In this document: positions 25,933-51,377 of the stretch, piece by piece
Numbering within the stretch: the first letter of the stretch is position 1
Layout: the number at the start of each line of letters is the position of its first letter
Source: Siculibacillus lacustris
GTDB taxonomy: Bacteria > Pseudomonadota > Alphaproteobacteria > Rhizobiales > Ancalomicrobiaceae
DNA: 64,000 nt
Direction of reading: 5' to 3'
NCBI RefSeq assembly: GCF_004328075.1
Contig: NZ_SJFN01000002.1
Location: forward strand, 151,689-215,688
Translations under genes and position numbers: made by a program
The notes under the pieces: generated by a model
What the model was told of the DNA's origin: nothing
The model's database searches: none
The model's input: the letters and a program-made list of their open reading frames with translations, nothing else

Positions 25933-25938
25933 CGTGGA

Positions 25939-26430
25939 TCACTCCGAAGCGGGGGCGCCGGTGTCCCCCGGCGCGAGGCCGGGGAAGGCGAAGGCGGCGG
26001 CGAGGCGGCGGCGCCACCAGGGGCCGAGCGGGCTCTCGACCACCGCGGCACCGTCATAGGCGTGGACGAAGCGGTCGGGGGCGCCGAGGATGCCGGCGTG
26101 TTTGGCCGGCAGGTCGGGGCGCCAGCGGAACAGCAGGACGTCGCCGGGCAGAATCGCGGCGAGCGGTACCGCCACGAGATGGCGGCGGCCGGCGTCGATC
26201 AGCCGTTCGGCGCGCGAGGCCTCGGCCCAGTCGGGGCCGTAGGCTTCGACCGCTTCGGGCTCGGCGCCGTAGAATTCGCGCCACAGGCCGCGGACGAGGC
26301 CGAGGCAGTCGCAGCCGACGCCTTCGAGGGAAGCCTGATGGACATAGGGCGTGCCGATCCAGCGGCGCGCCGCGGCGACGATGCGGGCGCGGTCGAAGGG
26401 CGCAGCGAGAGGACGCGGGGACTCGGTCAC
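25939..26430 (-). CDS. NlpC/P60 cell-wall peptidase (RcGTA g14)
   Basis: A 163-aa tail peptidase that opens peptidoglycan for DNA entry. The catalytic Cys lies in GCDCLGLVRG and the catalytic His in KHAGIL, with FVHAY further on. It starts at GTG 26430, overlapping the g13 stop as GTGA, so translation is coupled. There is no signal peptide, as expected for a particle component. The gene is directly upstream of g15. Confidence 0.93.
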   Translation of the reverse strand: MTESPRPLAAPFDRARIVAAARRWIGTPYVHQASLEGVGCDCLGLVRGLWREFYGAEPEAVEAYGPDWAEASRAERLIDAGRRHLVAVPLAAILPGDVLLFRWRPDLPAKHAGILGAPDRFVHAYDGAAVVESPLGPWWRRRLAAAFAFPGLAPGDTGAPASE

Positions 26431-27305
26431 GGCACCAGCGCTCCGCCATCGGTGATCATGCCGGCGTCCGGCGAGGCCACCAGGAAGTCGTTGCCGGGAA
26501 TATGGGGAAAGCCGCGGAAGGCGCGGGCGTTGGAAAAGCGGTCGCGGCAGGTCTCGAAGCGCTTGTCGCAGCCCTCCGACACGGTGACGGCGTCGCCGAC
26601 GGCGAGCGCCGCGCTCGGCGTCTGCCACAGTTCCAGCGTCACCTCGCCCGCGTCGACCCGGTGGACCTTGACCTCCACCGCCAGACCGGCACAGGCGCCG
26701 GAGGCGACGCGCAGCAGGCCGCGATCGAGGGCGCCTTCGGCCACGCCGGCAAGCCCGGCGACGGCGATGCGGCGGCGATCGATGACGCGCGTGACGGTGC
26801 CGGCGCGGGCGATCGGCGCGACGCCGCAACGGGCGTCGCCGAGGTCGGCGTCGCAGCGGTGCTGGAACAGGCGGCCGCCGGTCTCGTCGAGGCGATGGGC
26901 GAGCGAGCGGATCTCGGCGCGGAAGGCGCCGTCGAGACGGGTGATCTCGCCGAGGCTGCCGCGGCGCAGGCGCAGGCGCCGGCTCGGATCGCTCCAGTCG
27001 ACGAGATCGATCTCGACCGCGGCGGCGTCGAACAGGCCCGCCTCGATGTCGGTGGCGGTGAGGGTCGGCGACGACAGGGCGCCGTCGACCTCGAGGCCGC
27101 CGACCGACAGATCGGCGCGGGCCACGGCTTCCGACGCGGTGAAGCCGGTCGCCGCCTCGTGGGTGACGCCTCCGAAAACCAGCGGACGGTCGTGATCGGT
27201 GAAGCCGAGGACGCGGCCGTCGGCGAGGATCAGGCGCCAGCAGGTGGCGAGCGTGGTGACGCCGCCGGCGAGGGTGGCGGCGAGCTCGGGCGCGACGGTC
27301 TTCAC
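26427..27305 (-). CDS. Baseplate hub protein, DUF2163 (RcGTA g13)
   Basis: A 292-aa hub protein at the junction of tail tube and tail tip. The DUF2163/BR0599 domain carries four conserved cysteines arranged as two pairs: HRCDADLGDARCGV in the middle and GCDKRFETC near the end. In RcGTA the hub is reported to bind an iron-sulfur cluster; these residues are the likely ligands. The C-terminal FRGFPHIPGNDFL is a family signature. The start overlaps the g12 stop as ATGA. Confidence 0.93.
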   Translation of the reverse strand: MKTVAPELAATLAGGVTTLATCWRLILADGRVLGFTDHDRPLVFGGVTHEAATGFTASEAVARADLSVGGLEVDGALSSPTLTATDIEAGLFDAAAVEIDLVDWSDPSRRLRLRRGSLGEITRLDGAFRAEIRSLAHRLDETGGRLFQHRCDADLGDARCGVAPIARAGTVTRVIDRRRIAVAGLAGVAEGALDRGLLRVASGACAGLAVEVKVHRVDAGEVTLELWQTPSAALAVGDAVTVSEGCDKRFETCRDRFSNARAFRGFPHIPGNDFLVASPDAGMITDGGALVP

Positions 27306-27952
27306 GGGCGGATCTCCACCAGCGGAATGGACGGAATCTCGCCGGCCAGGAAGGCGGCGAGGTCGACGCGAATCTCGTCGGTGTCGAAACGCACCGGCAC
27401 CAGGAACTCGAAACCGGCGGTGATCGCCACGCCGGCCGGCGGCACCGCGGCACCGGCGAAAGTCACCAGGCCGCCGATCGCCGCGACCGCGAAATCGATG
27501 CCGGCGCGCCGCTCGACGCCGGCGACCGCGACCCGCACCGAGGCGGCGAGCGGTCGCTCGATCGCCCGGCTCCAGGCGCGGGCGCCGTCACCGTAGCGCT
27601 TGGCGAGCGCGAAGGCCGTGGTGACGCCGTCGCCGGTGCCGAGCGGCTGGTCGAGCGGCGTCGGCGCGCGCGACGGCGGGCCGGAGCGATGGTCGACCGG
27701 ATCGCGGTAGAGGAAGCCGTGGAGACGGCCGCGCCGGGCTTCGAAGAAGGCGAGAACGGCGTGGAGATCGTCGAGCGAGCGCAGGCCCGAGCCGGCGTCG
27801 TAGCGCCGGCGGCTGTCGGCCCAGCGCGCGTTGCGGACCTCGCGGCCGGAGCCGAGGGCGACGATCTCGGTGCGCCGTTCCGGTCCGCCGGCGGCGCGCA
27901 GGGCGACGTCGAGGGGGAAGATCACCTCGTCGAAAACGGGGGTTCCGGTCAT
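27302..27952 (-). CDS. Distal tail protein, DUF2460 (RcGTA g12)
   Basis: A 216-aa protein that caps the tail tube and joins it to the hub. DUF2460 signatures are FDEVIFPLDVALRAAGGPE at the N-terminus, RYDAGSG in the middle, LHGFLYRDPVDH and the C-terminal FEFLVPVRFDTD. ATG 27952 is preceded by GAGGT. Upstream, the cluster is broken by a gene on the other strand (28038-28295), so g12 to g15 are not directly joined to g11. Confidence 0.93.
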   Translation of the reverse strand: MTGTPVFDEVIFPLDVALRAAGGPERRTEIVALGSGREVRNARWADSRRRYDAGSGLRSLDDLHAVLAFFEARRGRLHGFLYRDPVDHRSGPPSRAPTPLDQPLGTGDGVTTAFALAKRYGDGARAWSRAIERPLAASVRVAVAGVERRAGIDFAVAAIGGLVTFAGAAVPPAGVAITAGFEFLVPVRFDTDEIRVDLAAFLAGEIPSIPLVEIRP

Positions 27953-28037
27953 CGTCACGAACCTCACACACTTTGATCTTCCGCAAGGACGATCACCCAC
28001 GGTCCGGGTAACGATCGGGTCACGGAGGAAGAGACAA

Positions 28038-28295
28038 ATGATGAGCCTTTCTTCACATGACCTTGTCGAAGAGTTCCCGGGCCAGGCCGAGCAAATTCGG
28101 GACCTGGCCGCTGCGGATCTACATTTCTCGAACGCCGTCGCCGCTTACACGGAGGTCAACCGAGAGGTTCTCCGGATCGAGAGCGAGATGGAACCTGCGT
28201 CCGACGAGTATTTGGAAACGCTCAAGAAGAAACGGCTGCGGCACCTGGACGAGATCCACGAGAAGCTGCTGCGGCAGAGGCACACCGGAACCTGA
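28038..28295 (+). CDS. DUF465 (YdcH-like) protein inserted in the GTA cluster
   Basis: An 85-aa protein on the strand opposite to all GTA genes, in the 366-bp g11-g12 gap. It is a helical hairpin: HFSNAVAAYTEVNREVLRIE and TLKKKRLRHLDEIHEKLLRQ match the DUF465 pattern of small antiparallel coiled coils. A strong GGAGGA site lies 8 bases before ATG 28038. Its codon use is less GC-rich than that of the neighbours. DUF465 proteins have no established function. This is probably a later insertion with its own promoter in 27953-28037. Confidence 0.8.
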   Translation: MMSLSSHDLVEEFPGQAEQIRDLAAADLHFSNAVAAYTEVNREVLRIESEMEPASDEYLETLKKKRLRHLDEIHEKLLRQRHTGT

Positions 28296-28318
28296 GCCCC
28301 TCCTCGTTGGGTCCGGTG

Positions 28319-28912
28319 TCAGAGCCCGCGCCGTCCCCGTCCGACGGCGCGGGCCAACATCCCGGTCACCTGTGCTTCGGCCCGGCGGAAGCTCGCCGCG
28401 TCCGGCGTGGTGACGTTGAAGGTGACGTTGGCGCCGGCGCCGTTGCCCTGGGTGGCGATGCCGAGGCGTCCATCGGCGCCACGAGCGAGCGGTAGGATCG
28501 CCTCCGGGCCGGCCTCGCCGAGGAGCCCGGTGCGCCCGCCGGTCATCGGGAAATAGGTCGGAGTCGCGACCACGCCGCCACTGGCGAAGGGCACAACGCC
28601 GCCGCCGGCGAAGACGCCGCCGCGGGCGAAGCCGAGGGCCGAGCCGAGACTCTTCAACAGCGATCCGGTCCCGCTGGCGATCAGGCTGGTCAGCGGCGAC
28701 AGCGCCGTGTCGAGGGCCTTGCTCGACAGCCGCTCGGCGATGCCGCGCAGCACCACGTCGAGGGCCTTGCCCTGGACCGCCGCGCCCTTGAAGGCGGCGG
28801 TGAGCGAGCGACCGAAGCTCTTGGAGAGACCGTCGAGGCTGCCGAGCGAGACGGCGAGCGACTGCGTGGTGTCGGTGGCGGCGGTGACGTCGCCGCTCTC
28901 GGCGTCGGCCAT
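28319..28912 (-). CDS. Tail tape measure protein (RcGTA g11)
   Basis: A 197-aa protein, short as expected for the small GTA tail, which sets tail length. The N-terminal half is amphipathic helix (SLAVSLGSLDGLSKSFG). A Gly-rich segment FARGGVFAGGGVVPFASGG and GLLGEAGPEAILPLARG are hallmarks of phage tape measure C-termini. GGAGGT lies 5 bases before ATG 28912. A terminator and an unrelated gene separate it from g10.1. Confidence 0.9.
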   Translation of the reverse strand: MADAESGDVTAATDTTQSLAVSLGSLDGLSKSFGRSLTAAFKGAAVQGKALDVVLRGIAERLSSKALDTALSPLTSLIASGTGSLLKSLGSALGFARGGVFAGGGVVPFASGGVVATPTYFPMTGGRTGLLGEAGPEAILPLARGADGRLGIATQGNGAGANVTFNVTTPDAASFRRAEAQVTGMLARAVGRGRRGL

Positions 28913-28963
28913 GGCGGACCTCCGGTCGGACGAGTGAACCCGAATGGTGCAGGGACACAGAAA

Positions 28964-28995
28964 GAGCGCGGCTCGACCTCGATCGAACCGCGCTC
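28964..28995 (-). terminator. Intrinsic terminator inside the GTA cluster
   Basis: Arms 28964-28976 and 28983-28995 pair at 12 of 13 positions, with a 6-base loop. Read on the minus strand the GC-rich stem is followed directly by TTTCT, so this is the best intrinsic terminator in the region. It ends the DUF4440 gene but also stands between GTA genes g1-g10.1 and g11-g15. Confidence 0.75.
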
Positions 28996-29028
28996 CGGAC
29001 TCCGGCGAGACGCCGTCCCGCGAACCGC

Positions 29029-29490
29029 TCAGACCTTGAGCGGCGTCGACTGACGGGCGAGCAGCTTCCAGGCGCCCTTGTCGAGCTTCCACACCTGCAG
29101 CACGCGGATGTGGGCGGTGCTGGTCTTGCCCTCGGGCAGGTTGTTGACCGAATCGAAGGTGTGGCGGACCAGCGCGTTGTCGCCGACCACGTCGACGATC
29201 TGGTCGGACAGCGCCAGGGACTTGAAGGAATTGGTCCCGTCGAGGCTCTTCAGGAACGACTCCTTGGTGTCGAGGTGGCCGTCGGAATGGACGTAGACGA
29301 GTTGGTCGAACACCAGCGCGGCGAGCGCCTTGCCGTCGCCGGCGACCATCGCGACGCGCAGCGCTTCGACGGCGGCGGCCACGGCGGCGGCGTCGTCGGC
29401 CGCGACGGCCGGGGCGGCGAAGGCGGTGGCGACGAGCGCGGCACCGACCGTCGCCAGGGCGGCGCGGCGGGTCTGTACGATCCGGGTCAT
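29029..29490 (-). CDS. Secreted DUF4440/SnoaL-like protein inserted in the GTA cluster
   Basis: A 153-aa protein with a cleavable, Ala-rich signal peptide (1-30, ending AVAA). The mature part has the NTF2-like cone fold pattern of DUF4440: AAVEALRVAMVAGDGKALAALV, then HTFDSVNN and RVLQVWKLDKGAWKLLARQSTP, split by strands. Function in the periplasm is unknown. ATG 29490 has an AGGAT site. It does not belong to known GTA gene sets and separates g10.1 from g11, where RcGTA genes are contiguous. It has its own terminator at 28964-28995 and an AT-richer upstream region at about 29590-29670. Confidence 0.85.
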   Translation of the reverse strand: MTRIVQTRRAALATVGAALVATAFAAPAVAADDAAAVAAAVEALRVAMVAGDGKALAALVFDQLVYVHSDGHLDTKESFLKSLDGTNSFKSLALSDQIVDVVGDNALVRHTFDSVNNLPEGKTSTAHIRVLQVWKLDKGAWKLLARQSTPLKV

Positions 29491-29677
29491 GATTGCGATC
29501 CTCGTGTGTTTCGATCGGCGGCACGCCCTGGAGGGCTGCGATTGATCGGCGCCGATCTCTCCCCTGTCGGCGGACATCGCCGACGAGGCTCTTATACGGG
29601 ATCGCCGGTGGCCTGACCAGATCCTGGTATGGTACGAAATGCCATTTTGACGCTGGGTCATGCGAATTCGCATGTCG

Positions 29678-29839
29678 TCAGGCCGGCGGATCGGGGAAAC
29701 GACGCATCAGCCGCTCGAAAGCCCCACGATCGGTGGCCGCAGTACCCGGGGCCGGCCCGAGGGCCGCGGCGATTTCACGCGGGGTCAGGGCCCAGAAGGC
29801 GGCCGGCGCCAGGCCCCAGCGGGTGAAGGCGAGGCGCAT
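29678..29839 (-). CDS. Tail assembly protein (RcGTA g10.1, TIGR02216 type)
   Basis: A 53-aa protein whose MRLAFTRWGLAPAAFWALTP resembles the very short TIGR02216 phage family, probably a tail assembly chaperone partner of g10. ATG 29839 overlaps the g10 stop by one base (TGATG). The frame upstream of the ATG codes for AFPWDDL, and family members usually have FPW before MRL, so translation may begin slightly upstream at a non-ATG codon or by a shift from g10. The end is Phe-Pro-Asp-Pro-Pro. Confidence 0.75.
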   Translation of the reverse strand: MRLAFTRWGLAPAAFWALTPREIAAALGPAPGTAATDRGAFERLMRRFPDPPA

Positions 29840-30243
29840 CAGATCGTCCCAGGGGAAGGCGCCGGGCCCCCCGAGACGGCCGGAGGGACGGCCCCGCCCT
29901 CCCCTCGGTCGATCGGCGGATCGGCCGGTTGGGGATCGCGGCCGAAGGTCGCGGCGAGGAGCTCGCCGACCACCGCGGCGGCGCCGAGCAGGCCGCCGTC
30001 GATCGGCAGCGCCGCGACCTCGGCGTCGGAGATCGCCGTGCCACCGCCGCGCAGGCCGCAGGCGAGCACCCGCAGGATGTCGCGCGCCGACAGCCGCCCC
30101 GAGGCGAAGCGCGCCGCGAGGGCCGCGAGATCGTCGACGCCGAAGGCCGTTTCGAGTTCGCACAGTGCGCCGAGGGTCAGGCACAGGACGACCGGACGGC
30201 CGTCGACGAGCGCCTCGACCTCGCCGCGACGACGATTGGCCAT
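29839..30243 (-). CDS. GTA gp10 tail assembly chaperone family protein
   Basis: A 134-aa protein. The N-terminal half fits the GTA gp10 family: MANRRRGEVEALVDGRPVVL, LCELETAFGV and ARDILRVLACGLRGGG. The C-terminal 40 residues are a Pro/Gly-rich tail. GGAGGA is 6 bases upstream of ATG 30243. It follows the tail tube gene g9 at 28 bases, the position of tail assembly chaperones in phages. Confidence 0.88.
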   Translation of the reverse strand: MANRRRGEVEALVDGRPVVLCLTLGALCELETAFGVDDLAALAARFASGRLSARDILRVLACGLRGGGTAISDAEVAALPIDGGLLGAAAVVGELLAATFGRDPQPADPPIDRGEGGAVPPAVSGGPAPSPGTI

Positions 30244-30271
30244 GGGAGGATCCTCCGATGAGAGGGCGGGA

Positions 30272-30685
30272 TCAGTGGGCGGTGAAGACCAGGGCGCCGG
30301 CCGATTCGAGGGTCAGCTCGAAGGTCATCTCGCCGTCGTGGTCGCCGGCGAATTCGAGCGCGGTGATCTGGAACGGCCCTTGGACGGTGCCGAAGTCGGG
30401 CAGCACCACCTGCCAGTCGCGCGCGGCACCGGCGAAGAAGGTGCCGCGGACGCTGGCGTCGGAAGCCGCGTCGCGGAACACGCCGGCGCCGGAGACATGG
30501 GCGCGGCGCACGCCGGCGCCGGCCAGGAGCTCGCGCCAGCGGTCGGGGCTGTCGGCGGTGGTGACGTCGACGGTGTCGGAGGAGAAGGCGAGGCGGCGGG
30601 CGCGCAGGCCGGCGACGGTGACGAAGCTGCCGGCACCGGTGTCGTCGAGTTTCAGCAAGAGGTCCTTGCCGCGTTGGATGGCCAT
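30272..30685 (-). CDS. Major tail (tube) protein, TP901-1 type (RcGTA g9)
   Basis: A 137-aa tail tube subunit. The family pattern is clear: MAIQRGKDLLLKLDD at the start, TVAGLRARRLAFSSDTVDVT, then WRELLAGAGVRRAHVSGAGVF and a C-terminal beta domain with GPFQITALEFAGDHDGE. It would polymerise around the tape measure. It is 13 bases downstream of g8. Confidence 0.93.
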   Translation of the reverse strand: MAIQRGKDLLLKLDDTGAGSFVTVAGLRARRLAFSSDTVDVTTADSPDRWRELLAGAGVRRAHVSGAGVFRDAASDASVRGTFFAGAARDWQVVLPDFGTVQGPFQITALEFAGDHDGEMTFELTLESAGALVFTAH

Positions 30686-30698
30686 GGCGGGCTCCCGG

Positions 30699-31118
30699 TC
30701 AGGGGTCGGTTGCGAGCGGTTCGGTGAGGGCGACGAAGCGCAGCAGCACCTCGGCGGTGGTGCGGTCCTTGAGCAGCCGGCTCTCCAGGCCCTCGCGGGC
30801 GAGGCCGACCAGCCGGTGGCCGGCGAGGCTCAGGCCGGGCGCCAACAGTGCGCGTTCGACCGCGGCGGCGAGGCCGGAGGCTTCGCCGCGCCCGCCGGCC
30901 CGCGACAGGATCCGCAGCGTCAGACGATGCTCGTCCAGTGGCGCGTCGAGACCGGAGCGGTCGCGGCTGGTGATCGCGTCGACCACCAGATGGGGAAAGG
31001 CGGCGTCGCGGGGTGGGGCGTCGAAGACGCGGCCGGCGAGCGGCGGCGCGGCGAGGCCAGCGTCGGCGCGCAGGCGGGCGAGGATCACCGTCAGGAGAGC
31101 ATGGGCCGCGGTGGTCAC
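30699..31118 (-). CDS. Tail terminator, DUF3168 (RcGTA g8)
   Basis: A 139-aa protein that forms the ring closing the head-proximal end of the tail. DUF3168 features: an early LLTVILARLRADAGLAA, FDAPPRDAAFPHLVVD, and LTLRILSRAGGRGEA followed by a helix. It starts at GTG 31118, overlapping the g7 stop (GTGA), with GGAGGAG just upstream. Confidence 0.9.
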   Translation of the reverse strand: MTTAAHALLTVILARLRADAGLAAPPLAGRVFDAPPRDAAFPHLVVDAITSRDRSGLDAPLDEHRLTLRILSRAGGRGEASGLAAAVERALLAPGLSLAGHRLVGLAREGLESRLLKDRTTAEVLLRFVALTEPLATDP

Positions 31119-31438
31119 GGAGTCTCCTCCTCGGCGAGGATCGCCAGTCGGCGGCGGCGTTGATCGAGATCGCGCACCGCCAGGATGCGGAAGATGCGGG
31201 TGCCGCGGCGCAGCCGGTCGGCACTGGTCAGGTCGTCGCGCCAGCGGCATTCGATCCGCCAGCCGGTGCGACCGGCGAGCGCGGCGCCGCGCTCGGCCTC
31301 GCCGTCGGAGGTGGGCGACAGGGCGGCCCACAGGGTCGCGGCGGCGGTCCAGGCGACGGTGCCGTCGGCGGCGGTCGCGGCGCGTTCGAGGACGAGGCGG
31401 CTGCGCAGAGCGGCGATGGAGGCGGGCGCGAGGGTCAC
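31115..31438 (-). CDS. Head closure/head-tail adaptor (RcGTA g7)
   Basis: A 107-aa head-tail joining protein of the SPP1 gp16/HK97 gp10-like type. Typical features are LRSRLVLERAATAADGTVAW near the start, a WAALSP strand and FRILAVRDLDQRRRRLAILA at the end. GTG 31438 overlaps the g6 stop (GTGA), and the g7 stop overlaps g8, so g6-g7-g8 are translationally coupled. Confidence 0.88.
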   Translation of the reverse strand: MTLAPASIAALRSRLVLERAATAADGTVAWTAAATLWAALSPTSDGEAERGAALAGRTGWRIECRWRDDLTSADRLRRGTRIFRILAVRDLDQRRRRLAILAEEETP

Positions 31439-32010
31439 GTCAGCCTCCGGATCCGATGCGGGGCGACCAGCGCCTCGAAGGCGTCGGCGATCGACGAAGG
31501 CACCACGCCATAGGCGTAGCCCTCGCGGTTCTCGTACCAGCGCGCCACCAGGATCATGATCGCCAGACGCAGCGGCTGCGGCACGTCGATGCCGGAGGGT
31601 CCGTAGCCGGCGACCAGATCGATCTCCAGGCCGTTCATCCGGCGCAGGCGCGCCGGCGGCGGCGTGGTGAAGACGAGGCGGGCGGGCACGCTCGCCGCAT
31701 CGAGGGTCCAGGCGGCGGGCGGCAAGGTCTCGGGGCGGCCGTCGGCGTCGTAGACGACGATCTCGGCGATCGAGCGCACCGGCGCCACCGGCAAGGTCAG
31801 GCGCCCGTCGCCGGGCCAGTCGTCGCGCCACACTCGCCAGGTCTGGTCGATCAGGACACGGCGGATCGCCGTCTCCACCTGCATCCGCGCCGCGGTGATC
31901 ATCGCGGCGAGGTAGTCGTCGTCGTCGCCGGAGTCGATCCGCAGATGGGCCTTGGCCTCGGCGAGCAACACCGGCTCGAGGGCCGGCGGGGTGATCAGGA
32001 GCACGGGCAT
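31435..32010 (-). CDS. Head-tail connector (RcGTA g6, phiE125 gp8 type)
   Basis: A 191-aa adaptor that attaches below the portal. Signatures: LAEAKAHLRIDSGDDDDYLA, ARMQVETAIRRVLIDQTW and a C-terminal helix pair ending in SIADAFEALVAPHRIRRL. It is 120 bases downstream of the capsid gene, with a strong hairpin (32034-32070) in that gap. Confidence 0.92.
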   Translation of the reverse strand: MPVLLITPPALEPVLLAEAKAHLRIDSGDDDDYLAAMITAARMQVETAIRRVLIDQTWRVWRDDWPGDGRLTLPVAPVRSIAEIVVYDADGRPETLPPAAWTLDAASVPARLVFTTPPPARLRRMNGLEIDLVAGYGPSGIDVPQPLRLAIMILVARWYENREGYAYGVVPSSIADAFEALVAPHRIRRLT

Positions 32011-32033
32011 GGGAGCTCTCGGGTCGGGAGGGG

Positions 32034-32070
32034 GCGGCCCGGTGGCGGGGGAGGCGCGCCACCGGGCCGC
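32034..32070 (-). terminator. 13-bp hairpin between capsid and connector genes
   Basis: Arms 32034-32046 and 32058-32070 are perfectly complementary, with an 11-base loop. No T-run follows. Phage genomes often place such a hairpin after the capsid gene to stabilise its message or reduce downstream transcription, so that capsid exceeds connector. Confidence 0.6.
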
Positions 32071-32130
32071 ATCGGCGACGACGGACTTCGGGACCGACGG
32101 CGGCAGGACGGGCGTCCGCCGGACCCGGTC

Positions 32131-33438
32131 TCAGGCCGTGCCGAACTTCAGGAGCTTGATCGCGTCGAAGTCCTGGACGCCGCCGCCGACCCGTTTGGTG
32201 GTGTAGAACAGCACGTAGGGCTTGGCGGAGAAGGGATCGCGCAGGACGCGCACCCCCAGCCGGTCGACCACCAGATAGCCGCGGCGGAAGTCGCCGAAGG
32301 CGATCGGGCAGGCATCGGCGGCGATCGCCGGCATGTCCTCGGCCTCGACGACGGGGAAGTTCATCAGCGTCGCCTGGGCGCCGGCCGAGGCCGGCGGCTG
32401 CCAGAGATAGTTGCCCTGGCCGTCCTTGAGCTTGCGGATCTCGGCTTGGGTCTTGCGGTTCATCACCCAGGCGGCGTTCTGGCGGTAGCCGGCCTTCACC
32501 GCATAGACCAGATCGACCAGCTTGTCGGAGGGGTTGCTGGTCGGCAGCGCCCCGGCGGCGCCGGTGACCAGATAGCCGAGCTTGCCCCACACCCAGCTCG
32601 CCGCGGCGACCCGGTCATAGGCCATGAAGCCCTTGGGCTGGGTGGAACCGTCGCCATTGACGAAGGCGGCGCCCTCCTGCTCGGCGAAGGCCTGCTGGAC
32701 CTCCTCGGCGATCCAGCTCTCGACGTCGATCGCCGCGTCGTCGAGCAGCGCGGCGGTCGCCGACGGCATGGCGTAGAGCTCCATGGTCGGGAACGACAGC
32801 TGCTGCAGCTGCGGGGTCGCGGTCTGCGGCCGCGCCGCGGTCTCGCCGACCCAGCCGACGGCCGGGCCGGTCGCCGAGAAGGGCTTGGCGAAGACCGCAC
32901 CGGAGACCTGGCGGTTGCCGGCGATGGCGCGGATCGGCGAGATCTGCGCCAGCCGCAGCGTCACTTCGCGTTCGAGCTCGGTCGGCACCAGATAGCCGCC
33001 GTCGGTGCCCGAGCCGATCGACAGGGCCTTCTCCTCGAGCGGCCGCAGGCCCTGGCTGGCGCCGGTGCGGACGTAGCTCTCGAAGGCGGCGCGGTGTTCC
33101 GGCGCCAGCGGCGACGCGGCGCGGGTCTCGCGGCCGAGGTGCGGCCGGGCGGCGTCGAGGGCGCGGCGATCGGCGCGCCGGCGGTCCTCGTCGAGGGCGC
33201 GGTCCATGCGGGCGAGTTTCTCGTCGAGGAGCGGATCGGCGTGACCGCGCTTCTCGATTTCGGCGAGGCGGCGGTCGTTGTCGGCGCGATAGGTCTCGAA
33301 GGTCCGCAGGAATTCCTCGAAGGCGGAATCGAGGGCGCCGGGCGAGGGCTCGGCGGACTTGATCTCGGGCGCCGCGACGGCGTCGCCGGAGAATTCGCAG
33401 GCCGCGAGAGCCTCGCGGGAGATCGGGGTGTCGGTCAT
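32131..33438 (-). CDS. HK97-family major capsid protein (RcGTA g5)
   Basis: A 435-aa capsid precursor. Residues 1-115 are a charged, coiled-coil delta (scaffold) region (EEFLRTFETYRADNDRRLAE) that the g4 protease should remove. The mature HK97 fold begins about LRPLEEKALSIGSGTDGGYL and includes SGAVFAKPF, the E-loop region, WIAEEVQQAFAEQEGAAF and the C-terminal A domain with YLVVDRLGVRVLRDPF. It is 8 bases from g4. Confidence 0.96.
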   Translation of the reverse strand: MTDTPISREALAACEFSGDAVAAPEIKSAEPSPGALDSAFEEFLRTFETYRADNDRRLAEIEKRGHADPLLDEKLARMDRALDEDRRRADRRALDAARPHLGRETRAASPLAPEHRAAFESYVRTGASQGLRPLEEKALSIGSGTDGGYLVPTELEREVTLRLAQISPIRAIAGNRQVSGAVFAKPFSATGPAVGWVGETAARPQTATPQLQQLSFPTMELYAMPSATAALLDDAAIDVESWIAEEVQQAFAEQEGAAFVNGDGSTQPKGFMAYDRVAAASWVWGKLGYLVTGAAGALPTSNPSDKLVDLVYAVKAGYRQNAAWVMNRKTQAEIRKLKDGQGNYLWQPPASAGAQATLMNFPVVEAEDMPAIAADACPIAFGDFRRGYLVVDRLGVRVLRDPFSAKPYVLFYTTKRVGGGVQDFDAIKLLKFGTA

Positions 33439-33445
33439 GGGATGG

Positions 33446-34006
33446 TCACCTCGTGGTGCGGATGAGGGCGGTGGCCCGGCGGATGGTGGCGAGGAGGTGG
33501 GCGCGCGCCCGCGGGTCCGCGCCGGCGGTCTCGACCGCGGCGATGCGGGCTTCGGGCTGCATCGGGAAGGTCACCAGCGAGATCTCCCAGAGGTCGATCT
33601 CGGTCAGGCGGCGGATGCCCGACTTGCGGTCGCGCGCGCCGCGCACGGCGCGGAAGCCGATCGACAGGCCGTCGAGGACGCCGGCGCGCATCAGCGTCGC
33701 GGCTTCGCGGCCACGGGCCAGCCCGTCGAGCAGGCGGCCGCGGACGAACAGGCCGCGGGCGTCCTCGCGGACCTCCAGCCAGCGACCGATCGGCTCGGCC
33801 GGGTCGTGATGCCACAGCATCTTGACCCCGGCGGCGCCGCGGCGGGCGAGCGAGGCGAGGAAGGCGCCGCGCTCGACCACGTCGTGGGCGAGGTCCTCGG
33901 CGCCGAACACGCAGGCGTGGCCGGAGAAGGTGCCGTCGGCGGCGACGGCGTCGACCTCGCCGGCGAGGCGTTTGACTTCAGGCGCGGCGAGCGGCAGGAG
34001 CGGCAT
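33446..34006 (-). CDS. HK97 prohead protease (RcGTA g4)
   Basis: A 186-aa maturation protease that trims the capsid delta domain. The herpesvirus-assemblin-like catalytic residues are visible: His in LWHHDPAEPIGRW, Ser in LDGLSIGF, and Glu in DLWEISLVTFP. ATG 34006 has a GAGGT site. An upstream in-frame ATG at 34144 would add an Arg/Pro-rich extension lying over another gene and is rejected. Confidence 0.94.
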   Translation of the reverse strand: MPLLPLAAPEVKRLAGEVDAVAADGTFSGHACVFGAEDLAHDVVERGAFLASLARRGAAGVKMLWHHDPAEPIGRWLEVREDARGLFVRGRLLDGLARGREAATLMRAGVLDGLSIGFRAVRGARDRKSGIRRLTEIDLWEISLVTFPMQPEARIAAVETAGADPRARAHLLATIRRATALIRTTR

Positions 34007-34008
34007 GG

Positions 34009-34152
34009 TCAGACCTCGCGGGAAACGGAGCGCTCGGGCCGCGGCAGACGCGCGGCGAGGCGGTCGACGAAACGGGCGAAGACCTCGCGGTGATCGGCCG
34101 TCGGGCGGGCGGCGAGCGGGGTGGCGCAGAGACGCGCGATCCATTCGGTCAT
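34009..34152 (-). CDS. Small hypothetical GTA protein between g3.5 and g4
   Basis: A 47-aa frame, from ATG 34152 (GAGG 7 bases upstream) to a stop 3 bases before the g4 start. The sequence is helical and amphipathic (MTEWIARLCATPLAA, then FARFVDRLAARLP). It has no known domain. It fills a gap that would otherwise be empty in this tightly packed cluster, and it keeps the same strand, so it is probably real. Confidence 0.55.
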   Translation of the reverse strand: MTEWIARLCATPLAARPTADHREVFARFVDRLAARLPRPERSVSREV

Positions 34153-34169
34153 GGCGGAGCCTCGGAGGA

Positions 34170-34358
34170 TCAGTCGGGATCGGCGAACAGCCGTTCGAGC
34201 CGGGCGATCTCGGTGACGAAGTCGTTGAACCGGCGGTTGGAGGCGGCGAGTTCGCGCAGCGCCCAGACCAGCAGGGCGGAGGCGCCGGACGCCCACAGGA
34301 ACAGGGCGAGATGGGCGAGATCGCCGCGTTCGGCGAAGACGGCGGCGAGATCGCTCAT
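34170..34358 (-). CDS. Small membrane-associated GTA protein (g3.5 position)
   Basis: A 62-aa protein. A hydrophobic helix at about residues 12-35 (LAHLALFLWASGASALLVWAL) is followed by an amphipathic helix NRRFNDFVTEIARLERLF. The start overlaps the portal stop as ATGA. RcGTA also has a small g3.5 gene between portal and protease; its function is not known. Confidence 0.72.
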   Translation of the reverse strand: MSDLAAVFAERGDLAHLALFLWASGASALLVWALRELAASNRRFNDFVTEIARLERLFADPD

Positions 34359-35563
34359 CGCGGGCCGCCCGGATCGGCGGGCGCGGCCGGGCCGTAGCCG
34401 ACCGCGGCGCGCTTCTCGTCGGTGGTGAGGAAGTCGGCGGTGCCGACCCGGGTCCACACCGCCTCGCGCTCGACGGCGAGGGCGGCGACCGCATCGGTGT
34501 CCCAGCCGAGCCGCAGCGCGTCGCCCCACACGGGAGCGAGCCAGGCCTCGAGGGCGGCGGCGGTGCGGGCGACCAGCGGCAGCACGGTGAGCCGCCAGAA
34601 GGCGCGGTTGGCCTCGACGTAGTTGGCGTAGGTGTTGTCGCCGGGAATGCCGAGCATCATCGGCGGCACCCCGAAGGCGAGGCAGATCTCGCGGGCGGCT
34701 TCGCGCTTGGCCTCGATGAAGTCCATCTCCTTCGGGGAGTAGCCCATCGCCTTCCAGTCGAGCCCGCCCTCGAGCAGCAGCGGCCGGCCGGCGTTGGCCG
34801 CGCCCTGGAAGCCGTCCTCGAGTTCGCGCTTGAGGCGTTCGAACTGCTCGTCGGAGAGATTGGCGCCGCCGTCGGCGCGATAGACCAGGGCGCCGGAGGG
34901 CCGCGCGGAATTGTCGAGCAGCGCCTTGGTCCAGGCGGAGGCCTGGTTGTGGATGTCGAGGCCGATCTGGGCGGCCTCGAGCGGGGCGAGGCCGTAGTGA
35001 TCGTTGAGCGGGTGGAAGGTCTTCAGCTGGAGGATCGGTCGCGGCCCGTCGCCGTCGGCGCGGAAGCGCAAGGTGCGCTCGCCGACGCCGTAGTCCCAGG
35101 CCTCGGGCCAGCCGTCGGGGCCGGGCACCACCTTCATGCGGTCGGGGCGCAGCGCATAGAGTTCGCGCGGGACCCCGTCGACCGCCACCAGCTCGATCCA
35201 GGCGTTGCCGGCGACCAGCAGGTGGCCGTAGACCTCCTCGAGGAAGGTCGGGCCGGCCTGATGGGCATTGGGGCGGGCGAGCAGGGCGAGCAGCGGATGG
35301 GTGGTCAGCTCGCGATCGTCCTCGTAGAGCAGCCACGGCACCGAGGCGGCGGCCTCGCCGACCAGCCGCACCGCGCGGTGGACGACCGGATTGCGGACAT
35401 AGCCTTCGCGGGCGAGCGCGGCGTAGTCGCGCGGCGTCCACACCGGCCGGCCCTGGGAGGCCCAGGCGAGGAGCGGGCCGACCCGCGAGGCCTTGGTCTC
35501 GGACACGGGCGGTCGACCGGCGGCGGGTCGGACCCGATGCCGGAGGCGGGAGAGGAGGGACAT
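34355..35563 (-). CDS. Phage portal protein, HK97 family (RcGTA g3)
   Basis: A 402-aa portal that forms the dodecameric channel through which DNA is packaged. Typical features: NPVVHRAVRLVGEAAASVPW, a DRMKVVPG strand, FHPLNDHYGLAPLEAAQ, NSARPSGAL, and the channel helix region with CLAFGVPPMMLGIPGDNTYANYVEA split over the core. ATG 35563 is preferred because MSLLSRLRHRVRP is the usual portal N-terminus. Upstream frame is Arg/Pro-rich. Confidence 0.95.
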   Translation of the reverse strand: MSLLSRLRHRVRPAAGRPPVSETKASRVGPLLAWASQGRPVWTPRDYAALAREGYVRNPVVHRAVRLVGEAAASVPWLLYEDDRELTTHPLLALLARPNAHQAGPTFLEEVYGHLLVAGNAWIELVAVDGVPRELYALRPDRMKVVPGPDGWPEAWDYGVGERTLRFRADGDGPRPILQLKTFHPLNDHYGLAPLEAAQIGLDIHNQASAWTKALLDNSARPSGALVYRADGGANLSDEQFERLKRELEDGFQGAANAGRPLLLEGGLDWKAMGYSPKEMDFIEAKREAAREICLAFGVPPMMLGIPGDNTYANYVEANRAFWRLTVLPLVARTAAALEAWLAPVWGDALRLGWDTDAVAALAVEREAVWTRVGTADFLTTDEKRAAVGYGPAAPADPGGPR

Positions 35564-35658
35564 GGGCGGAGGTCCTCGGGGGGGCGTGGTGTGCCTGGAG
35601 GCAGGGTGCAGGGTCGTAGGGTGCATGGAGCGCAGCGACTTGCACCGCGGCGGTGGCG

Positions 35659-36990
35659 TCACAGTCCGCGCACCTTCGGCCGGCCGCGGCCCTTGAGCAT
35701 CAGGGCGGTGAGCGCCCAGACCAAGGCGTCGAGGCGGTCGGGCGAGCGGCCGGACGACAGACCCTGGGGGCCGAAGTCGCAGAGCTCGTCCTCGAGTTCG
35801 GGGAAGGGGCCGACGTGGCGGACCCGACCCTGGGCGTAGAGGGCGGCGATCGGCTCGGCGCGCAGCCATTTGCCCCGCGTCGCCCGGACCGCCTCGATCG
35901 CCACGCCGGGCTCGATCTCGCGCAGCACCGCCTCGACCATCTCGCCGCCCTGATTGACCTCGACCACCAGAGCGTCGGCGTCGAGGGTCTCGTGCAGGGC
36001 CAGCGCGCGCGCCGCCCATTCGCTCGGACGCAGGCCGCGGGCCGAGGCATCGGCGAGCACATGGGCCACGCCGTCCTCGCCGAGGCCGGCGGCGACGATG
36101 CCGCAGGCGTCGGCGCTGGCCCCCGAGGTCGCCGGCGGATCGACCGCGACGACGATGCGGGTCATGGGCGGGGCGACGTCGAGGCGGCCGCGCTCGATCT
36201 CGTCGCGGCGCCACAGGGCGTCGTCGCGATCCTCGATCAGCTCGCCGTCGAGTTCCTGGCGGCCGAGGCGGGTGCCCTGGTAGCGGCCGACCACCGCGTC
36301 GAGGAAGCGCGGCGCGAGGTTCCAGGCATTGGCGCGGGTCGAGGCGCGCGACACCGCACAGGCGGGATCGCCGACCAGCCGCTTGACCAGCGCCACCGGG
36401 CGCGGCGTGGTGGTGGCGACCTGGCGGGGGCGGTCGCCCAGGCGCAATCCGAATTGCAACATGTCCCAGACCTCCTCGGCATGGCGCCATTTGGCGATCT
36501 CGTCGGCCCAGGCGATCTCGAACTGGGGGCCGCGCAGGGCTTCCGGGTCTTCCGACGAAAAGGCCTGGGCGACGGCGCCGTTCGGCCATTCGAGCCGGCG
36601 CAGTGACGATTTCCATTGCGGCCGCTCGGCGCGGCGGTGGATCCGCAGCAGGCCGGAGACGCCTTCGATCATCACGTCGCGCACGTCGGCATGGGTCTCG
36701 CCGACCAGGGCGATGCGCCCGGCCGGTCGGTCGGCGAAGGGCGGGCGGCCCAGCGCCATGGCCTTGACCCATTCGGCGCCGGCGCGGGTCTTGCCGGCAC
36801 CGCGGCCGCCGAGCAGCAGCCAGGTGGTCCAGTCGCCGTCGGGCGGCAACTGGTCCGGGCGGGCCCAGATCGACCAGTCGTCGCGCAGGCGTTCGCGCTC
36901 GGCGGCGGTCAGCGCCAGCACGGCGCGGTCGAGTTCAGTCCGTTCGTCGCAGGCTCTCAAGGCGGCGCGCAAGATCGAGGCGGAACTCAT
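35659..36990 (-). CDS. Large terminase (RcGTA g2)
   Basis: A 443-aa packaging motor ATPase and nuclease that fills heads with random host DNA. The Walker A motif GGRGAGKT lies at residues 61-68, and Walker B-like acid residues in IAWADE. The RNase H-like nuclease part starts with RIVVAVDPPATSG, with later acidic residues in VVEVNQGGEM and DALVWALTAL. GGAG lies 9 bases before ATG 36990. The start overlaps the end of g1 by 56 bases. Confidence 0.95.
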   Translation of the reverse strand: MSSASILRAALRACDERTELDRAVLALTAAERERLRDDWSIWARPDQLPPDGDWTTWLLLGGRGAGKTRAGAEWVKAMALGRPPFADRPAGRIALVGETHADVRDVMIEGVSGLLRIHRRAERPQWKSSLRRLEWPNGAVAQAFSSEDPEALRGPQFEIAWADEIAKWRHAEEVWDMLQFGLRLGDRPRQVATTTPRPVALVKRLVGDPACAVSRASTRANAWNLAPRFLDAVVGRYQGTRLGRQELDGELIEDRDDALWRRDEIERGRLDVAPPMTRIVVAVDPPATSGASADACGIVAAGLGEDGVAHVLADASARGLRPSEWAARALALHETLDADALVVEVNQGGEMVEAVLREIEPGVAIEAVRATRGKWLRAEPIAALYAQGRVRHVGPFPELEDELCDFGPQGLSSGRSPDRLDALVWALTALMLKGRGRPKVRGL

Positions 36991-37186
36991 CGATGTCGGG
37001 CTCCGCTGCGGTCGGGTCGCGACCGGCCTGTTTCTCCAGGCCGATCAGGAGTTCGAGGGTGCGGGCCAGCGCCCCGAGGGTGCGGGCGTCCTTCTCCTCG
37101 AGGCTCGGCGGCGCGGCGCCGTCGAAGCGGCGTTCGATCTCGGCGATCTGCCGCTCGACCGCCCGGAACAGCCGCTCGACCAGCAC
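36935..37186 (-). CDS. Small terminase-like protein (RcGTA g1), start unresolved
   Basis: The only canonical start in frame is GTG 37186 (83 aa), with no ribosome site. The C-terminal part is a helical oligomerisation region (LFRAVERQIAEIERRF, ALARTLELLIGLEKQAG). The same frame stays open upstream and codes for what looks like a helix-turn-helix, GAIAEVYGVTAALIYARIRR followed by EDWPRRR (about 37244-37315), as in small terminases. So the true gene is longer, to about 37420. A TTG with GGGGG upstream at 37429 is in another frame, so a frameshift is possible. Confidence 0.6.
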   Translation of the reverse strand: MLVERLFRAVERQIAEIERRFDGAAPPSLEEKDARTLGALARTLELLIGLEKQAGRDPTAAEPDIDEFRLDLARRLESLRRTD

Positions 37187-37429
37187 GCCGCGGTCGAGCG
37201 CCGGGGCGGCCGGCGGGGTCGCGGCGGTCCCGCGGCGGCGGCGGCGCGGCCAGTCCTCGCGACGGATGCGGGCATAGATCAGCGCGGCGGTGACGCCGTA
37301 GACCTCGGCGATGGCGCCGACCGCCAGGGCCGAGCCCTCGTAGGCGCGCGGATCTCCGCCCAGGGCGGCGACGCGGGCGCGGGTCGCGCGACCGGCGGCG
37401 CGGCGGATGCGGACGAAGTGTCGGTCAAG

Positions 37430-37751
37430 ACGCGCCCCCCGTGGGACGAGGACGAAGGGCCCGACGGCGACGGGCGATGCCGCGCGGCCGAGGAGCCTCG
37501 GGCAATGGGACGTCGACGGACGGAATGGGGTTTGAACGAACGCGGGTCGGGCGGCGGGGCCGGGAGGGCGGCGACCCTCCCCGGGCGGGGTGATCGGCGC
37601 CGGGGCGGCCGGGCTTCACCGACACCACTGCGATCGTGAGGAAAGAGTGCCGAAGCAACGTACGGTCGTCAAGAAAAAGCGACCGAAGTCAGGAATATTT
37701 TCCTGAACCGGTCGCCGAGATTCGTTCAACCCTTTGATTTCACGACGCTCG
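37430..37751. other. Region upstream of the GTA cluster; probable GTA promoter
   Basis: No convincing gene lies here; short frames are Arg/Pro-rich. The part from 37630 to 37740 is clearly more AT-rich than its surroundings. It is the natural place for the leftward promoter of the GTA operon and contains the palindrome described at 37689-37706. The exact promoter elements cannot be named from sequence alone. Confidence 0.45.
37689..37706. promoter_or_regulatory. Palindrome TCAGGAA-N4-TTCCTGA upstream of g1
   Basis: Two perfect 7-bp arms separated by the 4 bases TATT in the AT-rich stretch upstream of the GTA genes. There is no T-run, so it looks more like an operator than a terminator. It could bind a GTA regulator, or serve the YcgN gene that ends at 37752. 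Confidence 0.4.
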
Positions 37752-48449: not shown

Positions 48450-48878
48450 TTGCCGAGCCTCGACGACATCCTCTCCGACTTCGACGTGATCGACGATTGG
48501 GAGGAGCGGTACCGCTACCTGATCGAACTCGGCCGCGGCCTGCCGCCCCTCGACGAGGCGGAGCGCACCGACGCCAACAAGGTGCGCGGCTGCGCCAGCC
48601 AGGTGTGGCTGTCGACGCGGATCGAAGCGGACGTCCCCGGGGACCCGCGTCTGTGGCTGACCGGCGATTCGGACGCCCACATCGTCAAGGGGCTGGTGGC
48701 GGTGATCCTGGCGATGTTCTCCGGCCGGCGGGCGAGCGAGATCCTCGCCCTCGATCCCGAGCCGACCTTCGCCGCCCTGCACCTGCGCGAACACCTCACG
48801 CCGCAGCGCGCCAACGGCGTCGCCTCGATGATCGAGCGCATCCGCCACGAGGCGCGCACCGCCCGCGCCGGGGTTTGA
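48450..48878 (+). CDS. sufE: SufE family sulfur acceptor
   Basis: SufE accepts sulfur from cysteine desulfurase for Fe-S cluster assembly. The 142-aa protein has the active Cys48 in KVRGCASQVW, preceded by LPPLDEAERTDANK, and the ending ANGVASMIERIR, all typical. No ATG is available; TTG 48450 has GGGAG 9 bases upstream and gives the normal N-terminus LPSLDDILSDFD. It is 65 bases downstream of the DUF5330 gene on the same strand. No other suf genes are in the window. Confidence 0.93.
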   Translation: MPSLDDILSDFDVIDDWEERYRYLIELGRGLPPLDEAERTDANKVRGCASQVWLSTRIEADVPGDPRLWLTGDSDAHIVKGLVAVILAMFSGRRASEILALDPEPTFAALHLREHLTPQRANGVASMIERIRHEARTARAGV

Positions 48879-48956: not shown

Positions 48957-49796
48957 CTAATCGCGACCCGCCGCCGTCCCGCCTCCGACGCTCGGCCGAT
49001 AATCGGCCGCGCCCCAACGCCGGGTGCGGCCGGGGCCGTCGCGGCCGCGGGCTTCCTCGGCGAGACCGTAGTGCACGGCGAGCCGGCCGAGGGCGATGTC
49101 GAGCACCACCTTGGCCGAGCGCGCCGGCCAGTGACGCAGGCTCTCCACCGTCTCCAGTCCCTGCAGGAAACAGCAGACGTCGAGCAGGACGTCGGCGAGA
49201 TCGCCGCGGCCGACCGTGTCGAGGGCGGCGTGGACCCTGTCGCGGGCGGCGAGCGCGCGGTCGGTGAGATCGCCGGGGCCGCCGGGCGGGCCGCCGCCGG
49301 TGCGACCGATCGACCAGTTGGAGGTCACGGTCGGCATCATCCGGGCGAGGGTGAAGTCGCGGCGCAGGCGTTCGCCGGCGGCGATGCGGGCCGGCGCGAG
49401 GAGGGCACGGCCGTCGCGATCGCGGCGGCGGGCGAGGCGGCCGAGCGGGCTCTCGGCCTCGTCGACCAGCACCGCCGGACCGGCCGGCTCGACCGCGCGG
49501 CGCACGACGTCGCCGTGGGCGGCGCGAAACCGGTCGACACCGAAGCCGCCGCGCAGGGCGTGACCAGCAGCGGTGAGGATCACCCGGTCGCCGCCGGCGG
49601 CGGCCTCGATGCGGATCACGCCCTCGGCGGCGAGGGCGGCGAGGAGATCCGGATCGACCCGCAGGCGACGCAGACCCTCGGATCCGAGGAGGCGCAGGAC
49701 CGGCGGCGGACCGCCGTCGACGATCGCTTCGGCATCGCCGAGGAGGGCGATCAGGCGATCGCGGCGGCGGGTGGCGCGTTCGTCGCGGGAGGTCAT
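48957..49796 (-). CDS. DUF6456 protein, candidate GafZ-like GTA regulator
   Basis: A 279-aa protein. The C-terminal half fits DUF6456: SPLGRLARRRDRDGRALLAP, AGERLRRDFTLARMMPTVTSNW split by the family core, DRVHAALDTVGRGDLADVLLDVCCF, then LETVESLRHWPARSAKVVL. The N-terminal half looks like a winged helix (LRLLGSEGLRRL, RLLAALAAEGVI). Its start overlaps the stop of the DnaA-like gene (ATGA). In Rhodobacter GafA combines a DnaA-like domain with a further domain, and in Caulobacter these are split as GafY and GafZ; this pair has the same layout. Assignment is inference. Confidence 0.82.
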   Translation of the reverse strand: MTSRDERATRRRDRLIALLGDAEAIVDGGPPPVLRLLGSEGLRRLRVDPDLLAALAAEGVIRIEAAAGGDRVILTAAGHALRGGFGVDRFRAAHGDVVRRAVEPAGPAVLVDEAESPLGRLARRRDRDGRALLAPARIAAGERLRRDFTLARMMPTVTSNWSIGRTGGGPPGGPGDLTDRALAARDRVHAALDTVGRGDLADVLLDVCCFLQGLETVESLRHWPARSAKVVLDIALGRLAVHYGLAEEARGRDGPGRTRRWGAADYRPSVGGGTAAGRD

Positions 49797-50257
49797 GCGT
49801 CGGTCCCCAGTCCACGGGCCAGGCGCTGGCCGAGATCGGCGGCGGTCTCGATGGCCGCCACCACGCGATCGACGCGCGGGTCGTCGCGGCGGTCTTCGAC
49901 CACCCGACAGGCATGGGCGACGGTGGTGCGGTCGCGATCGAAACGGCGGCCGACCTCGGTCAGCGACAGGGCGAACCAGACGTGGGCGACATACATCGCC
50001 ACCTGGCGGGCGAAGGCGATGTGGGCGCCGCCGCGGCTGTCGGAGCGCAACTGATCGAGGCTGGTCTGGAAGGCCTGGGCGACGATCGCCTCCAGGCATC
50101 GGCACTGGGCGTCGATGGCATCGCCGCCGTCGATGCGGCCGCGGGCGCGGCGGCGCCGCGGGCGGCGTTGCGACGGCGTCCAGGGCCGCAGGGGCCCACG
50201 AAGGGCGGCCGCACCGGCCTCCGACCGGCCGGCACTCCCACATTCCGAAAACCGCAT
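49793..50257 (-). CDS. DnaA-domain-IV-like HTH protein, candidate GafY-like GTA activator
   Basis: A 154-aa protein. The first 45 residues are basic and disordered. Residues about 55-135 match DnaA domain IV: ARQVAMYVAHVWFALSLTEV, RRFDRDRTTVAHACRVV, the latter the DnaA-box-reading signature. There is no ATPase domain, so it is a DNA-binding regulator rather than an initiator. GGAGGA lies 7 bases before ATG 50257. It is translationally coupled to the DUF6456 gene. GafY of Caulobacter and the GafA of Rhodobacter have such a domain and activate GTA genes. Confidence 0.85.
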   Translation of the reverse strand: MRFSECGSAGRSEAGAAALRGPLRPWTPSQRRPRRRRARGRIDGGDAIDAQCRCLEAIVAQAFQTSLDQLRSDSRGGAHIAFARQVAMYVAHVWFALSLTEVGRRFDRDRTTVAHACRVVEDRRDDPRVDRVVAAIETAADLGQRLARGLGTDA

Positions 50258-50445
50258 GGTGAATTCCTCCGTCCGAGCGCGATAGGAATAAATACCTTTC
50301 GATTATCGGAGACGTTCGGCGGGCGGGGATAACTAACGAGTTGTATGGTGAATTCGGACAATCATTCGGTGCGGGGACAAGTGCCGCACCGATCCCCGGG
50401 TGCGGGAGGGGTGCGAAGATCGGGACCTCGAACGAGGAGATCCCG
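50258..50445. promoter_or_regulatory. Divergent promoter region of the DnaA-like and DUF6477-like genes
   Basis: A 188-bp gap between divergent genes with an AT-rich core at about 50280-50360, against very GC-rich flanks. Both genes have strong ribosome sites at its borders (GGAGGA for the left gene, GAGGAG for the right). I cannot assign -35/-10 boxes with confidence. Confidence 0.5.
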
Positions 50446-50844
50446 ATGACGGCGACGAAGAGCGAGACGGGGACGGCCGGCCGGAGCGGCGCGGCCACGC
50501 CGGGGTGGGCGACGAGGATCGCCGGACGCGAGGCCTATCGGCGCGAGCGGATGTTGCCGCGCCTGATCGCGGTCGGCCCCGAGGAGATCGCCGACGACAC
50601 GGCGAGCGGGCGTTCGGCGGTGTTGCGGCGGCTGTTGCGGGCCCTGCGCGGCGAGCGGATGCGCGGGCGCGCCGGCCACTGGAGCTACAGTCTCGACCGC
50701 CATGTCGGGCTGGTGCAGGCGGCCGCCGCCGAGCGGCGCGCCCTGGCGCGGCAGCGGGTCCGCGAATGCGCCGCGATCCCAGGTGCGCCCGCCGGTGCGG
50801 CATCTCGCCTCGGGCCGGCCGATCGGCGCGGCGACGACGGCTGA
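50446..50844 (+). CDS. DUF6477-like protein
   Basis: A 132-aa protein, start ATG 50446 after GAGGAG. It has AYRRERMLPRLIAVG, LRRLLRALRGERMRGRAG and WSYSLDRHVGLVQAAAAERR, similar to the YRRERDLRRLL...YSVARHVEVLIALMGEA pattern of DUF6477. The protein is basic and helical, without membrane segments. It diverges from the DnaA-like regulator and is convergent with mucR, with a strong terminator between. Function is unknown. Confidence 0.72.
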   Translation: MTATKSETGTAGRSGAATPGWATRIAGREAYRRERMLPRLIAVGPEEIADDTASGRSAVLRRLLRALRGERMRGRAGHWSYSLDRHVGLVQAAAAERRALARQRVRECAAIPGAPAGAASRLGPADRRGDDG

Positions 50845-50954: not shown

Positions 50955-51377
50955 TCAGCGGGCGCCGCGGCGACGCTGCTGACCGAGGCCCATCTTCTTG
51001 GCGAGGTCGGAACGAGCCTGGGCGTAGTTGGGGGCGACCATCGGATAATCGGCCGGCAGACCCCACTTCTCGCGGTACTCTTCCGGAGTCATGTTGTACT
51101 GGGTGCGCAGATGGCGCTTCAGCGACTTGAACTTCTTGCCGTCTTCGAGGCAGATGATGTAGTCCGGGGTGACGGACTTCTTCAGCGGCACGGCGGGCTT
51201 CAGCGGCTCCGGCAGGGGCTCGGGAGCCACGCCCGAGGACGTGCGCTGCAGAGCGGCATAGACCTCGGCGATCAGCCCGGCCAATTCGGCCGACGGGACC
51301 GTATTGTTGCTGACGTAGGCCGACACGATGTCGGCCGCCAGATCGATCAGGTTGCTGCTTCCCGAAATGTCGCTCAT
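50955..51377 (-). CDS. MucR/Ros family transcriptional regulator with altered zinc site
   Basis: A 140-aa H-NS-like global repressor. The N-terminal oligomerisation domain spans about 1-50 ([16 protein letters not shown]). The DNA-binding part is [20 protein letters not shown], then [20 protein letters not shown] and [20 protein letters not shown]. In Ros the zinc is held by Cys-Cys/Asp-His-His; here the positions read Cys76, Asp79, His89, Gln93, so the last ligand is missing. Some Mesorhizobium relatives also lack zinc. It is followed by a bidirectional terminator. Confidence 0.93.

Follow-up and report, generated by a model that had tools for sequence, protein, structure and literature searches.

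We analyzed a 64,000-nucleotide stretch of the Siculibacillus lacustris genome (hereafter, the window), in which two genes on the minus strand overlap by the sequence ATGA at 49796-49793. The upstream gene, gafY (49793..50257), codes for a 154-aa DNA-binding protein with a DnaA domain IV (Bac_DnaA_C) and without ATPase, and gafZ (48957..49796), which gafY directly precedes, codes for a 279-aa DUF6456 protein. The sole Pfam match of GafY was PF08299 Bac_DnaA_C (E = 2.8e-17, residues 57-119), the AAA+ domain being absent, and comparison with NCBIfam gave a PRK06030-type match of 8e-20, under the cut-off of that model. GafZ matched PF20057 DUF6456 (E = 5e-47, residues 111-244). The overlap and the division into a DnaA-type protein and a DUF6456 protein, both described in the initial annotation, were thus borne out. 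The pair was flanked upstream of gafY by mucR (50955..51377, minus strand; Pfam ROS_MUCR, 6.6e-54) and downstream of gafZ by sufE (48450..48878, plus strand; Pfam SufE, 9.6e-44). A DUF6477 gene (50446..50844, plus strand; Pfam, 4.1e-6) was placed divergently from gafYZ; its relatives were present in 55 of 130 gaf loci, and it may share the gafYZ control region.

DUF6456 was present as a single copy in the 5.02-Mb genome. When the DUF6456 model was run on 14 named control genomes, Caulobacter vibrioides was the only match, while 124 of the 150 genomes surveyed from the order possessed the domain. In this survey, gafY adjoined gafZ in 113 of 128 loci. In another genome of the same family the DUF6456 gene was found in two pieces (G156:C1:2704808-2705193, minus strand), suggesting a frameshifted gafZ. 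The pair itself is already known in kind: in Hyphomicrobiales, Sherlock and Fogg (2022, PMC9638019) described a "split gafA" with the same organization, in which a short gene for a DnaA-like protein precedes a DUF6456 gene, mucR being the upstream neighbour and sufE the downstream one. The gene organization is identical to that of our pair, and operators and GTA linkage are not described in the accessible part of that paper.

The AlphaFold2 model of GafZ, for which 52 sequences were used, had a pLDDT of 82.9. Its N-terminal half formed a winged helix and its C-terminal bundle was similar to sigma region 4. In a structure comparison (VIA), approximately residues 172-245 gave Z scores of 8.7 to ECF sigma L and 8.0 to sigma28, values which are borderline for a helical domain; Foldseek alone returned no significant match for the model. 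This borderline resemblance to sigma region 4 agrees with the sigma-like HTH that has been predicted in GafZ of Caulobacter. The same kinds of domain, DnaA-like and DUF6456/sigma-like, control the RcGTA-type cluster in Rhodobacter capsulatus GafA, but there they are joined in one polypeptide whose central region contacts the omega subunit of RNA polymerase, whereas here they are two proteins.

An RcGTA-type structural cluster occupied 22045..37363 on the minus strand, from a small-terminase-like ORF at its head (36935-37363) to the GTA TIM-barrel gene, as delimited by Pfam matches and ORFs. It contained terminase, portal (Pfam, 8.3e-85), prohead protease, capsid, connector, gp8, tail tube, gp10 and its chaperone, gp12 (DUF2460), gp13 (baseplate hub), NlpC and the GTA TIM-barrel protein. 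Since this is the full structural set with the GTA-specific genes, the earlier description of a complete GTA about 12 kb from the pair held, with gafYZ 11.6 kb upstream. The cluster also enclosed a DUF4440/SnoaL-like gene (29029-29673, minus strand; 4.3e-14), flanked by the tail chaperone and the gp11 position.

The initial annotation had further pointed out that a GTA and its switch may be encoded in one window. This was true here, but not as a special feature. The GTA TIM barrel was found in 110 of the 150 genomes of the order, and among the 56 genomes with both genes on one contig, gafZ lay 17-67 kb from the GTA TIM gene in 51, in every case with gafZ upstream of the GTA and, counted from the listed rows, with both on the same strand in 45. 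The distance in the remaining five was 0.38-3.2 Mb. Switch and cluster are thus generally linked in the order, and we dropped the idea that their linkage is a rarity. In Caulobacter crescentus gafYZ is not next to the GTA. The nearest named relative was Pinisolibacter aquiterrae, of the same family; a protein scan of contigs gave three loci, one of them in P. aquiterrae B13.

The region upstream of gafY (50258-50360) had a GC content of 50.5%, compared with 71.6% for the window, and only 0.27% of segments of the same size were as AT-rich, in agreement with the AT-rich promoter region noticed earlier. Three elements on the minus strand were recognized in it in the following order: a conserved DnaA-box-like element at the -35 position (TTATCCCCGC, 50323..50332), the copy in this genome of TTATCCCC; a -10-like GATAAT (50302..50307), 17-18 bp further on and assigned by position and resemblance; and a dyad, AGGTATTTATTCCT, that covers the position at which gafYZ transcription is predicted to begin, 26 bp before gafY (50284..50297). 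The element TTATCCCC was on the sense strand of 68 of the 113 gafY upstream regions, against a shuffled expectation of 1.2% for either strand. One genome without a GTA TIM match (G140, locus L017) nevertheless possessed gafYZ and the dyad, and its gafY promoter had TTGACA and TATAAT instead of TTATCCCC.

TTATCCCC resembles the DnaA box TTATCCACA, a likeness that fits a DnaA-type GafY. The recognition helix of GafY has RDRTTV where that of DnaA reads RDHTTV; the segment RDRTTVAH was common to the relatives, mostly in exactly that form. At GTA promoters TTATCCCC was not enriched (3 of 57, equal to background), although Caulobacter GafY binds there. Because of this background level, we demoted TTATCCCC from a general GafY site to a candidate one, and TTATCCCCGC is accordingly a possible site of GafY.

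The GTA cluster promoter was also on the minus strand. A -35 element, TTGACG (37667..37672), was followed by a degenerate inverted repeat, ACCGTACGTT (37657..37666), and, with a 17-bp spacer, by a predicted -10-like CACTCT (37644..37649), which aligns with CATCTT/CATGCT of the relatives. The promoters of 34 relatives had TTGACA or TTGACG at the aligned -35 position, then an inverted repeat (AGCGTgACGCT or CCGTgACGG) and then a weak -10; these 34 were matched by a pattern that itself required part of the inverted repeat. The 8-mers TTGACAGC and ACAGCGTG were also enriched at GTA promoters in an unguided count. The GafZ-binding element (ZBE) in the GTA promoter of Caulobacter likewise lies between -35 and -10 (PMC11150451), and the repeat of S. 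lacustris at this place is imperfect. Caulobacter crescentus and this locus both have an inverted repeat there, degenerate in the latter, and a long leader before the first GTA gene, but its -35 is AATCAT, in contrast to TTGACG/TTGACA here.

The dyad of the gafYZ start region was present again in the GTA promoter (AGGAAAATATTCCT, 37691..37704, minus strand), 18 bp upstream of the -35. It is a 14-bp near-palindrome, AGGA-W6-TCCT; the GTA-promoter copy was exact, and the gafY copy had a mismatch in one half-site (GGTA). Exact matches to AGGWAWWTATTCCT, a pattern drawn from these sites, occurred in the 5.0-Mb genome only at these two promoters. A third dyad in the genome, AGGATTATATTCCT (L061 3782-3795; G000:C9:143781-143794), lay upstream of the trpG-trpD operon, and a similar site, AGGAAAATAATCCT, was seen upstream of trpG in the family member G158 (L053). 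Matches within the photolyase genes of two relatives looked like coding sequence.

The dyad was first spotted by eye in the window and only then looked for in other genomes; its relaxed form, AGGA-W6-TCCT, was picked after a first look at some of these test genomes. With up to one mismatch, this form preceded gafY in 67 of 113 loci, against 0.35% in shuffled sequences, and in 20 of 57 GTA promoters, against 0.6%. Control dyads with other half-sites of similar composition gave 0-7 hits over all sets, with the exception of AGGT, which is one mismatch from AGGA. The presence of an operator-like dyad common to the two promoters ties gafYZ to the GTA.

These observations bear on what gafYZ controls. 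GafY is DnaA-like, and Caulobacter gafY was once named hdaB, so that gafYZ might control a non-GTA process such as replication, its closeness to the GTA being inherited synteny only. In addition, the distance survey drew on a gafZ list of 119 genomes: both genes were recorded for 103 of them, and the others lacked an entry for the place of GTA_TIM (some drafts are incomplete). We consider control of such a non-GTA process very improbable, given the operator common to both promoters, the linkage in 51 of 56 genomes, and the reassignment of HdaB to GTA control in Caulobacter (PMC9632790). The GafY/GafZ reading of the initial annotation was supported by the domains, the gene order, the sufE/mucR flanks and the adjacent GTA, all of which match the split GafA (GafY + GafZ) known from Hyphomicrobiales (PMC9638019) and Caulobacter (PMC9632790, PMC11150451). 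We are therefore highly confident, on the basis of Pfam families, published descriptions and synteny, that the pair is the GafYZ switch of the neighbouring GTA. It corresponds to the two-gene activator/antiterminator of Caulobacter crescentus (PMC9632790, PMC11150451), here assigned from sequence.

Which protein would bind the dyad was judged from its distribution. A RogA-like protein (P0003, L103) with HTH and S24 domains was encoded at G000:C8:507-1172 on the minus strand (S24, 1.1e-9; weak HTH). The dyad was upstream of gafY in 60 of 86 RogA-positive loci but in only 2 of 18 RogA-negative ones, and the two exceptions were genomes only 61% and 56% complete. Among genomes at least 90% complete, 57 of 82 with RogA had the dyad at gafY (up to one mismatch), compared with 0 of 12 without. 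Related genomes are not independent, and counting by family, as a partial correction, gave 26 of 30 RogA-positive families against 0 of 11 RogA-negative ones (p = 4e-7, with the two exceptions left out). A genome of the same family outside the RogA survey, G152, had neither RogA nor the dyad. The core TATCCCC of TTATCCCC, the element used as an internal control, was independent of RogA (12 of 18 loci without it, 56 of 86 with it). Of 61 rows with rogA-like genes, 21 also had the dyad upstream of the gene; none was found in the promoter of this genome's own rogA, nor near gafY in G156, the genome with the split DUF6456 gene.

In Caulobacter, Gozzi et al. reported inverted repeats of the form GGAA-N4-TTCC in the DNA fragment of gafYZ to which RogA binds (PMC9632790). 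Our dyad has this sequence at its centre, and the gafYZ core promoter of S. lacustris has one copy with one mismatch, at 50284-50297, whereas the gafYZ promoter of Caulobacter crescentus has two. Our first idea, that the dyad was a GafY box, was dropped: because the dyad tracks the presence of RogA, precedes rogA, and contains the GGAA-N4-TTCC reported under RogA, we read it as an operator of RogA, which it probably is. In the work on Caulobacter, no GafY motif could be defined, and RogA was placed only upstream of the activators (PMC9632790, PMC11150451).

The dyad might instead be the operator of another XRE-family repressor acting at gafYZ, such as a CdxB- or RtrA/B-like protein. In Caulobacter, gafYZ is bound or repressed by CdxB and Rtr proteins as well (PMC13236601), and RogA-like genes exist in genomes whose gafY has no dyad, for example G022, G064 and G107. 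We regard this as unlikely in view of the family-level association with the RogA-like gene (26 of 30 against 0 of 11), the dyad before rogA itself (21 of 61), and the same GGAA-N4-TTCC in the RogA-bound fragment of Caulobacter.

Assigning the dyad to RogA raises the role of its second copy. In Caulobacter, enrichment of RogA was confined to gafYZ and CCNA_02002 and did not extend to the GTA promoter, whereas here the GTA promoter carries a RogA-type dyad too. The occurrence of such a site at both gafYZ and the particle genes points to a possible direct double lock, which would be new. We consider the chance that RogA directly represses the GTA promoter in this organism to be about even. The position of the dyad leaves room for doubt: its right arm overlaps the -35 (TTGACA) in most families that have it, but in the family of S. 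lacustris it is about 18 bp upstream, and only 20 of 57 GTA promoters had the dyad at up to one mismatch. The GTA-promoter copy in this family may thus be a remnant or an activator site rather than a repressor site, which we think possible but the less probable explanation, because three family members (G000, G027 and G158) have near-dyadic copies and the copy in S. lacustris is an exact AGGA-W6-TCCT.

The candidate RogA repressors differed in the residues needed for LexA-type self-cleavage. The RogA-like protein of S. lacustris had Thr and Gln at the positions of the LexA-type Ser and Lys, and none of the aligned members of its family kept both residues. Caulobacter RogA also lacks the LexA catalytic residues (PMC9632790). 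Among the RogA-like rows compared (L105-L133, L256-L268 and L270-L289), 32 aligned rows kept Ser and Lys, mostly with an Ala-Gly cleavage site. This result suggests that the predicted cleavability of RogA varies by lineage.

From these sequences we propose the following mechanism. In the off state, the RogA-like repressor would bind the dyad over the gafYZ start and would probably also occupy the second copy in the GTA promoter, so that both promoters are shut. Release of this block would allow GafY and GafZ to be made. GafY, as a DnaA-type DNA binder, would recruit sigma70 RNA polymerase, and GafZ would load at the GTA inverted repeat between the -35 and -10, then let the polymerase read through the 15-kb cluster; both the loading and the antitermination are carried over from Caulobacter.

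The operator allows predictions at the level of single bases for two promoters of the window, and it would serve as a marker for tracing GTA control across the order. More tentatively, and slightly short of an even chance in our estimate, one RogA may directly lock its own promoter and those of gafYZ and the GTA in many Rhizobiales, being SOS-cleavable where Ser-Lys and Ala-Gly are kept, with cleavage lost in the family of S. lacustris as in Caulobacter. The RogA relatives with LexA-type catalytic residues make a link between DNA damage and GTA release testable. If it is true, lineages with a Ser-Lys RogA would release their GTA after DNA damage, in the manner of a prophage.
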